Shown in pieces: positions 15,100 through 48,000 of a stretch of 64,000 bases of DNA. The position numbers and the translations under genes are program-made. This DNA is from Gelria sp. Kuro-4 (lineage in GTDB: Bacteria > Bacillota > DTU030 > DUMP01): positions 557,001 to 621,000 of the forward strand of contig NZ_AP024619.1 in the NCBI RefSeq assembly GCF_019668485.1, read 5' to 3'. Numbering within the stretch: position 1 is the stretch's first letter; every line of letters begins with the position of its first letter. The notes under the pieces are model-generated. The model saw only the letters and a list, made by a program, of their open reading frames with translations, did no database searches and was not told where the DNA came from.

Positions 15100-15193
15100 G
15101 GGGGTGGATTGGGCCTGGTGGCTTGCCCGGACTTCAAATCCGGCGGCGGGCGAGTTCGTCCGCGGTGGGTTCGATTCCCACACACTCCCGCCA
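15100..15193 (+). tRNA. selC: tRNA-Sec (anticodon UCA)
   Basis: A 94-base tRNA with genomically encoded CCA (15191-15193). The anticodon stem is CCGGA/TCCGG with loop CTTCAAA (anticodon TCA, 15134-15136). There is a long variable arm (GCGGGC...GTCCGC) and a T-arm GTGGG-TTCGATT-CCCAC. The extended acceptor (15100-15107 with 15182-15189) pairs at seven of eight positions, with a G-A mismatch at the eighth. It decodes the four UGA codons annotated here. Confidence 0.96.
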
Positions 15194-16281: not shown

Positions 16282-16299
16282 ACAGTCAGCATACTCAGG

Positions 16300-16622
16300 A
16301 ATGCGATGAAGGGGAAGAGTACCCTGGGCGGAAGGCCAAAGAGAGCCGCCGGTGATGGGAAGGCGGCGCCGGAAGCCGAGGTGAATGGGCCCCCGAGCGG
16401 TGCTGCTAAAGCCGAAAGGTTAAGTAGCTGCATCCGGCCGTCCGCCGTTACCCGGACAGGATATCGCGGTCTAAGTACCGCCGTATCCGTAAAGACGGCC
16501 CTTCCATTGAGGTGGCAAGAAGCACACTATCCTGAATGATAGCGTGCTTTTTTGTTCACCGGGCCGATTAGGGTGGTACCACGGTGAGCATCCGTCCCTT
16601 CCGGGCGGATGCTTTTCTTTTC
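16300..16622 (+). promoter_or_regulatory. T-box riboswitch (probably tRNA-Trp responsive)
   Basis: The leader begins with GATGAAGGGGAAGAGTA, the AGTA start of stem I. It has a stem-III-like hairpin (16520-16550) followed by T6, then the T-box AGGGTGGTACCACGG (16570-16584). It ends in a terminator, 10-bp stem 16588-16597 with 16603-16612 followed by TTTTCTTT. A candidate specifier TGG lies at 16386-16388 in GGTGAATGGGC, matching a tryptophan gene downstream. Uncharged tRNA-Trp would favour the antiterminator and read-through. Confidence 0.9.
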
Positions 16623-44674: not shown

Positions 44675-45342
44675 GTGAGGTTCTCGGCGAGGAGAAGTGT
44701 CGGCTTACTGGTGATACTGCTGACAGTTGTTTGTTTGACCCTGACCGCTGTTTTACCCGCCGTCCAGGCAGCTACGCCGTCCGCGCCAGCCCAAAATGTG
44801 ATCTTGCTCATCGGTGACGGCATGGGTTACGGACAGATGACTTTAGGCCGCATTGTCGAGGGCGGCGCGCTAACGATGGACAGCTTCACGTATAACGGAA
44901 CCGTTTCCACTTATCCCAACGACCCGGTGGAAAAATGGGTGACTGACTCGGCCGCCGCCGCCACGGCCATCGCCACCGGCGTGAAAACATACAATGCCGC
45001 CATCAGCGTGGATGTCAACAAACAACCGGTGAAGCTAAACTGACCGCGGAGAATTACAAAGACATCTTCACGGAGTACGTCGGCATTAATGACCTTACCC
45101 TTGACGAACGCGTTGCCCTGCTGAGTGCCTTCAAAGTGAAAGAGACCAACCCCTACGCCGCAGCTAATGCCGCCGCGGACATTGTAAGCCGCCGGGCTTA
45201 CGCCGGCTGGACCTCTGGCGGCCATACCGGGAATGACGTGCCCGTCATGGCTTATGGTCCGTACGCTGAAGAGTTCGCAAGGCATTTGGATAACACCGAT
45301 CTCAATAAGTTGATGTATAGGGCCTGCGGCTTCCAGAAATAG
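44675..45342 (+). pseudogene. Alkaline phosphatase, internally deleted and frameshifted
   Basis: The first 122 codons (44675-45043) encode a signal peptide and the start of an alkaline phosphatase: ILLIGDGMGYGQM (metal Asp) and TDSAAAATAIATGVKTYN (nucleophile Ser). The frame then meets a TGA, and from about 45030 a different frame gives the family's C-terminal part (YAGWTSGGHTGNDVPVMAYGP). The middle of the roughly 450-residue enzyme, more than 200 residues, is missing. A Pho-box-like promoter remains upstream. An assembly deletion cannot be excluded. Confidence 0.85.
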
Positions 45343-45504
45343 AAGCTTGTCTCCCTTTGGTAATATAAACCGGGGCCAACCCCAAAGCGGCACCCTTGCC
45401 TTGAAGGGCGGGGCGCTGTTGCTGCTCAAAAAGTTCTTACGCGTGCATAACGGTTGTAAGGCGGGACAGAATAATGAACGAAGGGTCTGTAGTGGCTGAG
45501 CCCA

Positions 45505-45885
45505 GACTGCTGCAGGGCGGGTTCGCTCTGCAGTGGTCGGCCAAAGGTTAACGCCGGGTGCTTGGCCTGGCGTTAGCCGGCGGGCAGACCGGCCGGTGTC
45601 TCCTCAGTTTCTGCGGCGGTCCGAAAGATCGCTGTGGGAGCGAGGGGGATGCCCGCCGGTCGAGCTAAGATCCGGCGAAGTGCCGCATGTTTTTTCACTC
45701 TGTTGAAAAGGCTCGAGGTTTAGGAGTTCCTCGCGAGAGGAACCTAGGCTTCCCAGGTACTTCGCCGGGTCGAGCACAGGTTGCTGCAGGTTCCGTAATG
45801 GTCCCCGGCGGTCGAAAGGCTGCCTTGGGCTATGCAGGGATCTGCAGCAGCTGCAGCGTAGGTCACTACGGGCTCTTCTTTTTTA
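45505..45885 (+). ncRNA. Candidate large structured RNA, class not recognised
   Basis: No gene lies between 45343 and 46023. Successive stems are: 45505-45515/45528-45538 (11 bp, two GU), 45546-45558/45566-45578 (13 bp, two GU), 45579-45586/45650-45657 (8 bp), 45669-45681/45759-45771 (13 bp, one GU) enclosing 45726-45732/45737-45743 closed by a GCGA tetraloop, and 45782-45789/45842-45849 enclosing 45807-45813/45818-45824 (two GU) closed by GAAA. A CGTAG/CTACG hairpin followed by CTCTTCTTTTTT near 45858-45892 could end it. It lacks the RNase P, tmRNA, SRP and cobalamin motifs I know. Confidence 0.6.
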
Positions 45886-46023
45886 TGCCGGTCGTAAGGC
45901 GTCGTGCGAAGAATAGTCCTGCAGTTAGGCTTCTTGCCCGCCGGGATAGGAAGGAAGGGTTTCTGCCCCCAGATGTCGAAGATTAGAACAACTAAACGGC
46001 TACGGACGCTGGGGGGCTTTGGG

Positions 46024-46953: not shown

Positions 46954-48000
46954 ATGAGCAAGGAACAGCGCCTGACGGCGCTGACGGCCGCGTCCGGCTG
47001 AGGGGCCAAACTGGGTCCTGTGACCCTCTCGCAGGTGCTGCGAGATTTACCCGTGCTTACCGATCCGCGCCTCCTGGTGGGGCACGGCACCAGCGATGAC
47101 GCCGCCGTTTACCAGCTGGCGCCGGACCTGGCCCTCATTGAAACCGTGGACTTTTTCACGCCGGTGGTGGACGATCCCTTCACCTTCGGCCAGATTGCCG
47201 CCGCCAACGCCCTGAGCGACATCTACGCCATGGGCGGGCAGCCGCTCCTGGCCCTCAACATCGTCGGCTTTCCCTCCTGCCTGGATACGGAAGTCCTGCG
47301 TGCGATCCTGCGCGGCGGGGCGGAAAAGGTGAAAGAAGCAGGGGCCCTGCTGGCCGGCGGGCACAGCATTCAGGATGAGGAGCCCAAATACGGGCTGGCG
47401 GTAACCGGTGCGGCCCGCCCGGCGGAGATCTGGAGCAACGCCGGCGCCCGGCCCGGCGACGAGCTCATCCTTACCAAACCGCTGGGGACGGGGGTTTTCC
47501 TTACCGCCTACAAGGTGGACCTGGCACCGGCCGGGGAGTTTGCCCCGGTGGCTGCCAGCATGGCCCGTTTGAATGCGGCGGCGGCCGCCGCCGCCCAGGC
47601 GGTGGGCGTGAGCGCCTGCACCGATATCACCGGGTTCGGCCTCCTGGGGCATGCTTACGAGGTGGCCGCCGCCAGCGGCGTTGACCTGGCCATTGACCTG
47701 GCGGCGGTGCCGTTCTTTCCCGGCGCGCGGGAGCTGGCCCGGCAGGGGTTGGTGCCGGCCGGCACGTACCGCAACCGCGAGTACTTAACGGGCAAGGTGG
47801 AGCTTCCCCAGGACCTGCCCGACGAGCTCTCCGACCTGCTCTTTGACCCGCAGACGAGCGGCGGGCTGCTCCTTGCCGTGCCCGCGCCCAAAGCAGGTGC
47901 CCTCCTGGACGAACTCGCCCGCCGCAGCGTGCCCGCCGCACGCGTCGGCCGGGCGGAACCGGTGGCGGGGGACACGCCGCGCCTGCGGGTTTACGGCTGA
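46954..48000 (+). CDS. selD: Selenophosphate synthetase (Sec-containing)
   Basis: SelD makes selenophosphate from selenide and ATP for the whole Sec pathway. From ATG 46954 (GAGGTGAGGCC upstream) the frame runs through an in-frame TGA at 46999-47001 (codon 16) in the context ASG-U-GAK, the position of the catalytic Cys/Sec in this family. It continues to 48000 (348 residues), with GHGTSDDAAVY and GGHSIQDEEPKYGLAVTG as ATP and metal regions. Ignoring the UGA would lose the active site. It is followed by yedF. Confidence 0.96.
47013..47026 (+). promoter_or_regulatory. SECIS-like hairpin after selD UGA
   Basis: GGGTC (47013-47017) pairs with GACCC (47022-47026) around the loop CTGT, 11 bases after the UGA. 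Plausible SelB target; short stem. Confidence 0.45.

Follow-up and report, generated by a model that had tools for sequence, protein, structure and literature searches.

A ∼400-nt structured RNA outside Rfam 15 with a forespore-type promoter in endospore-forming Bacillota

The RNA and its locus

We analyzed a stretch of 64,000 nucleotides from Gelria sp. Kuro-4 (contig NZ_AP024619.1, positions 557,001 to 621,000), called here the window, in which a gap at 45343 to 46020 separates an alkaline phosphatase relic from a LysR gene that is followed by selD. The relic (44675 to 45342), judged by eye only, lacks its middle: its N-terminal part (44675 to 45043) has a signal peptide and the motifs GDGMG and DSAAAATA, and its C-terminal part (45136 to 45342) lies in another frame. 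The gap holds an RNA on the + strand.

Alignments, covariation, and the covariance models R1 (3′ domain, P11 arm) and R2 (built separately for the 5′ domain) place the RNA at 45482 to 45885, with a core from 45482 to 45876 followed by a T-rich tract to 45885. Its ends are sharp in the aligned homologues: the 5′ end is AGGGUCUGUAGUGGCU, starting at 45482, and the 3′ end is GGUCACUACGGGCUCU, with its last base at 45876, and the two ends base-pair together. The original prediction, made from the letters of the window alone, had given the interval as 45505 to 45885, which was correct except at the start, where it lacked the 5′ half of the closing helix. Folding of the + strand from 45440 to 45920 (481 nt) yielded an energy of −279.7 kcal/mol, corresponding to a z score of −13 against dinucleotide shuffles. 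A minus-strand RNA was rejected, as its z score against dinucleotide shuffles was only −2.9. A protein-coding function was also rejected: the homologues have no conserved frame, their longest stop-free stretch varying from 41 to 128 codons.

The failure to assign the RNA to a known class, also reported in the original prediction, was reproduced with Rfam 15, which we scanned at gathering and at permissive thresholds. No family was found at E≤5 in 711 bases of the window on both strands, and 20 homologous loci gave none at E≤0.1 over the RNA; the families without a match included OLE, GOLLD, ROOL, raiA, HEARO, RNase P, tmRNA, SRP, and 6S. Our computations show that the + strand of the window encodes at this position a real, strongly folded RNA of ∼400 nt that lies outside Rfam 15.

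Covarying structure and wobble code

We found DNA homologues of the RNA in 20 of the 61 relatives' genomes searched, with a lowest identity of 65%. RNAalifold applied to 16 homologues gave 136 pairs, 91 of them with compensatory changes. In an alignment of 38 full-length sequences (A4), with a consensus structure of 153 pairs, a standard pair was formed in 96.1% of the cells, and pairing fell to 32 to 44% when partner columns were slid by 1 to 3. Changes on both sides occurred at 122 of the 153 pairs versus 74.6 ± 3.7 in shuffles, none of 500 shuffles reached the covariation of A4 on any measure, and the RNAalifold energy of the 38 homologues was 52 standard deviations under that of column-shuffled alignments. 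In its conserved, covarying secondary structure, the RNA agrees with large structured free-standing bacterial noncoding RNAs as a kind, though not as a family.

The RNA folds around a six-way hub. Its three short arms consist of a single helix (P1, P3, and P5), and its three long arms combine two helices (P6-P7, P8-P10, and P11-P13). The closing helix P1 pairs 45482 to 45497 with 45861 to 45876 (99.7% of cells paired; double changes at 10 of 16 pairs). Arms 2 and 3 are the hairpins P3 (45505 to 45538; 98.2% paired; double changes at 12 of 15 pairs) and P5 (45546 to 45578; 97.3% paired; 13 of 15), whose free loops vary in sequence and length among homologues. Arm 4 (P6-P7, 45587 to 45661) consists of two modules in mirror image, capped by a short loop; it is 95 to 97% paired, with double changes at 13/16 and 13/15 pairs. 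Arm 5 (P8-P10, 45664 to 45775) also bears P9, a variable side hairpin; P8 and P10 are 95 to 96% paired and P9 78%, with double changes at 16/19 (P8), 4/4 (P9), and 13/16 (P10) pairs. In arm 6 (P11-P13, 45779 to 45852), P11 and P13 are 95 to 98% paired, with double changes at 14/16 and 10/13 pairs. The long arms end in GNRA tetraloops on P10 (GCGA in the window copy) and P13 (GAAA) and in a short loop on P7. The stems, the kept GU pairs, and both tetraloops had been recognized in the original prediction and are all real; the stems, put there at six or more, amount to ten helices.

The six hub linkers are near-identical, with the consensus sequences GAGCCAA, GGCCAAA, GGCGGGCA, GAGCUAA, GAGCAAA, and GUAGCGUA. 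Linkers 1 (45498 to 45504, GAGCCAA), 4 (45662 to 45668, GAGCUAA, identical in 27/38), and 5 (45772 to 45778, GAGCAAA) closely resemble the remaining ones at 45539 to 45545, 45579 to 45586, and 45853 to 45860. Together with the tetraloops, these linkers are the conserved single strands of the RNA.

Nine helices of 14 to 16 bp share, more or less completely in each case, a wobble code in which a G·U and a U·G enclose a single pair and another wobble of the same polarity lies at a distance of exactly 10 bp. The summed score of this code was 20.6, whereas 5,000 within-helix pair permutations averaged 10.7 and never exceeded 14.7, and a scan of spacings from 4 to 13 had its peak at 10 only. In P1, P5, P10, P11, and P13, 74 to 95% of the sequences keep any given one of the three wobbles, and the pairs between the wobbles covary freely; the code is less well kept in P6 and P8, and the GC-rich window copy has wobbles at 19 of the 27 code positions. 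Since three fixed wobble positions recur in nine otherwise free helices, we infer selection on the wobbles themselves, and since 10 bp are close to one A-form turn, the wobble sites would lie nearly on the same side of the helix. Such a set of nine helices, with three common wobble positions and the rest free to covary, would be an unusually clean natural case of a repeated RNA recognition face. R1, although a model of the P11 arm, matches further arms of the same RNA too, which, together with the shared wobble code, makes the RNA look as if a single helix module had been duplicated internally into an array. The original prediction, supported in its claim of an RNA, had contained neither this repeated architecture nor a link to sporulation.

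Transcription unit, distribution, and link to sporulation

A putative forespore-type promoter, GCATA-N14-GGACAGAATA, precedes the RNA at 45445 to 45473 (+), with the −35 element at 45445 to 45449 and the −10 block at 45464 to 45473. Upstream of nearly all homologues, we found T-G-N-A-T-A and, mostly after 14 to 15 nt, G-G-N-N-A-T-A-A-T-A. The pattern [GT]NATR-N12-19-GGN1-3-ANAHTA was present in 25 of 47 upstream regions versus 0.28 in shuffles; a sigma-A promoter was rejected (0/47). At the other end, a U-tract follows immediately 3′ of the RNA in 21/47 cases (2.6 expected) and a terminator hairpin lies downstream in 14/47 (0.55 expected).

No gene family was linked to the RNA in 40 neighborhoods, where the genes at loci other than the window were clustered but not named. 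The phosphatase relic and LysR/selD, between which the window copy sits, are not conserved as neighbors across the 40 loci, and the only neighbor cluster, presumably of ABC transporters, occurs in 9/40 loci at varying distance and orientation. With its own promoter, its mutually paired ends, the U-tract or terminator, and no conserved neighbor, the RNA fits the free noncoding RNA that the original prediction had offered as one option, and we strongly infer, in the absence of transcript data, that it is an independent transcription unit. In three genomes of family f45 (G055, G302, and G363; loci L020 and L085), the RNA stands tail to tail with spoIVA at a distance of 57 to 85 nt, the only site where we saw it beside a known sporulation gene.

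C. difficile has closely similar sigma-F and sigma-G consensus sequences, of which that of sigma-F is marked by a G upstream of the −10 element (PMC3789822). By this sequence criterion, the promoter of the RNA is of the sigma-F/sigma-G type and carries the distinguishing G. In the genome of the window, GNATR-N14-15-GGNNANAMTA has 23 sites and its reversed control 4. Apart from the RNA itself, what follows 3′ of these sites includes spoIIR (with the promoter TGTATG-N15-GGTAATAATA) and genes for a SASP, a GerA-type protein (gerA), an M23 peptidase, Coat_F, a transglycosylase/PBP, and DUF2953. This predicted set matches what a forespore regulon would give; the sites at rpoB and murE are probably due to chance. 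Exact matches to the promoter pattern upstream of ctsR (L166) and rpoB (L175) may reflect either chance or forespore control. When the matrix of the RNA promoter was applied to other species, only 3/18 spoIIR and 11/29 SASP upstream regions scored above the shuffled 95% level, which makes this comparison weak; the pattern search within the own genome is the stronger promoter test. We strongly infer that the RNA is transcribed in the forespore, an inference drawn from sequence evidence without expression data.

Of 398 genomes searched in the phylum, 163 gave an R1 match to the RNA (best E, ∼1e−25). In nearly all of 40 loci, which had been selected by their R1 match, the part modeled by R2 was found on the same strand, ∼290 nt upstream of the R1 match. 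Full-length homologues have a median length of 397 nt (range, 301 to 443), and the named carriers include Carboxydocella thermautotrophica, Pelotomaculum terephthalicicum, and metagenome-assembled genomes (MAGs) of Desulfotomaculaceae and Tepidanaerobacteraceae. A phage origin was rejected, a strict pattern having zero matches in viral contigs versus 18 stretches in genome contigs.

SpoIVA was present in 158/163 R1 carriers versus 178/235 noncarriers (odds ratio, 10; p = 9e−10; uncorrected for phylogeny), and the five carriers without SpoIVA all have SASP. Conversely, about half of the genomes with SpoIVA (178/336) lack the RNA, and a retest with R2 of SpoIVA genomes negative for R1 left 36/38 negative. 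The RNA is therefore not needed for sporulation in general; it is widespread but optional in spore-formers. Among SpoIVA-bearing members, it was found in 8/8 of the window's own family, 13/13 of f15, 6/6 of f66, 0/7 of f84, and 1/12 of f17. This consistency of presence or absence within families suggests that the RNA is inherited vertically, with some losses or a limited spread.

Two genomes have two full-length copies each, G044 (C1 and C18) and G085 (G085:C9, L095), those of G085 being 2.6 kb apart; each duplicate copy in both genomes has its own promoter. Five short versions of 310 to 352 nt including the tail (L009, L010, L011, L014, and L017), all from the window's own family but from genera other than that of the window, have lost most of P7 and P13, which implies that modules can be dropped. 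In G048, a single-contig genome of 2,280,035 bp that has SpoIVA and SASP, no more than the 3′ third of the RNA can be recognized (L114/L015) and R2 finds no 5′ domain; this locus is possibly a decayed copy.

Possible roles, known RNAs, and other features of the window

We propose that the RNA represents a new class of free-standing RNAs of ∼300 to 440 nt in endospore-forming Bacillota. It would be transcribed in the forespore from its sigma-F/sigma-G-type promoter and would end right after the helix that closes its 5′ and 3′ ends. The nine near-equivalent helices of 14 to 16 bp would each present one and the same face at intervals of about one A-form turn, and these repeated faces, up to nine, may serve as docking sites for a single kind of partner in several copies, probably an RNA-binding protein of the forespore. 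The resulting multivalent scaffold would give rise to a ribonucleoprotein particle in the spore, either developing or dormant. We hold this view, of a forespore structural RNA that serves as a multivalent scaffold for several copies of one partner, with about as much doubt as confidence. The scaffold role and the partner are only weakly inferred, with no protein-binding data: the wobble code, the near-identical linkers, the R1 matches to further arms, and the loss of arms in short versions (L009 to L011 and L014) speak for a scaffold, and the lack of a conserved neighbor gene that would indicate a partner speaks against its assignment. It also seems plausible to us, if not quite probable, that a pseudo-symmetric six-arm RNA, arisen by internal duplication of one helix module, is the core of an unknown spore ribonucleoprotein or RNA-only particle, with the G·U wobbles one A-form turn apart as the repeated docking site.

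The wobble code could instead serve RNA-RNA packing, nuclease protection, or protection against DNA palindrome instability. In a particle made of RNA only, the wobble faces and tetraloops would pack the arms together or onto further copies of the RNA, and protein would be secondary. The tetraloop-tipped long arms, the pseudo-symmetric hub, and the equivalent helix faces suit such packing, and homo-oligomers are formed by the large ornate RNAs OLE, ROOL, and GOLLD (PMC12286853). We consider it unlikely, however, as a closed symmetric particle would hardly tolerate the loss of most of P7 and P13 in five relatives from the window's own family, and direct evidence of contacts is lacking.

The promoter class and the inferred cell type are also those of Bvs196 (PMC9147052), and the RNA could in principle be a forespore regulator that likewise pairs with mRNAs such as those of spo0A or SASP. 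This seems quite improbable to us, given that conserved helices, whose two strands both show compensatory changes, take up nearly all of the RNA. The P3 and P5 loops are variable and the conserved single strands are linkers and tetraloops, which leaves no conserved seed; because almost no conserved single strand remains, pairing with mRNAs is less likely than a scaffold or packing role. We give very little credence to the idea that the wobbles merely break DNA palindromes or perfect double-stranded RNA and so spare the gene from SbcCD-type nucleases and the RNA from RNase III: wobbles do occur in every long helix, but avoidance would not need three fixed positions and a polarity in nine helices, and within-helix permutations never attain the observed score. 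The window does place the RNA 5′ of LysR and selD, with all three on one strand, but we see virtually no room for a leader, the other option of the original prediction, or a riboswitch that would act in cis on the LysR-selD-yedF genes, because its own promoter in nearly every homologue, its own 3′ end, and the lack of a conserved downstream gene in 40 neighborhoods point to a free RNA rather than a selD leader, and in three genomes of one family it is convergent with spoIVA.

We know of very few RNAs in spore development and of none of such size or regularity. CsfG, at about 130 nt, is far shorter and is not known to have a six-arm fold, and the raiA motif/ModT RNA is about 200 nt long with a different fold. 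If the inference of forespore transcription holds, a large share of the anaerobic endospore-formers make a big structured forespore RNA that is absent from the catalogs.

Bvs196/S547 is a 294-nt forespore small RNA of Bacillus located in a fixed hinT-ecsA interval, and pairing of Bvs196 with spo0A or SASP messages has been reported in Bacillus velezensis (PMC9147052). Like Bvs196/S547 (PMC9147052), the window RNA is free, has a sigma-F/sigma-G promoter, a stable conserved secondary structure, and a 3′ terminator, and is forespore specific (as reported for Bvs196 and inferred here), but it is ∼400 nt long and has no fixed neighbor. CsfG, as cited in PMC9147052, is under sigma-F/sigma-G control and forespore restricted, with targets described there as not known; it resembles the window RNA in its sigma-F/sigma-G-type control and, by inference, in its forespore location. 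Large size, ornateness, a free-standing nature, and many covarying helices are also features of the bacterial RNAs OLE, GOLLD, and ROOL, the first of which likewise occurs in Bacillota, in extremophilic or anaerobic ones (PMC12286853); the window RNA differs from them in lacking an Rfam match, in size, hub, and repeats, and in its forespore promoter. The raiA motif/ModT RNA, studied in the spore-former C. difficile (PMC11706538), is also a widespread structured RNA of Bacillota, whereas the window RNA has no Rfam match.

We found no earlier description of the RNA in the open-access literature, a search that left out supplements and subscription papers. Judged by covariance model, the RNA falls outside every Rfam family, and we regard it as real and previously uncatalogued, with possible homology to Bvs196/S547 and CsfG as the largest gap in this claim of novelty. 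In our judgment, there is a small but not negligible chance that a description of it already exists or that the RNA forms a branch of Bvs196/CsfG.

In the same window, selD (46955 to 48000) seems to have an in-frame TGA at 46999, within ...TAASG-U-GAKLG..., and the ORF caller begins only at 47020; because of this codon, the predicted selenophosphate synthetase is probably itself a selenoprotein. Further Rfam matches in the window are SECIS_4 (2306 to 2343), tRNA-Sec (15100 to 15189), and a T-box leader (16297 to 16602).
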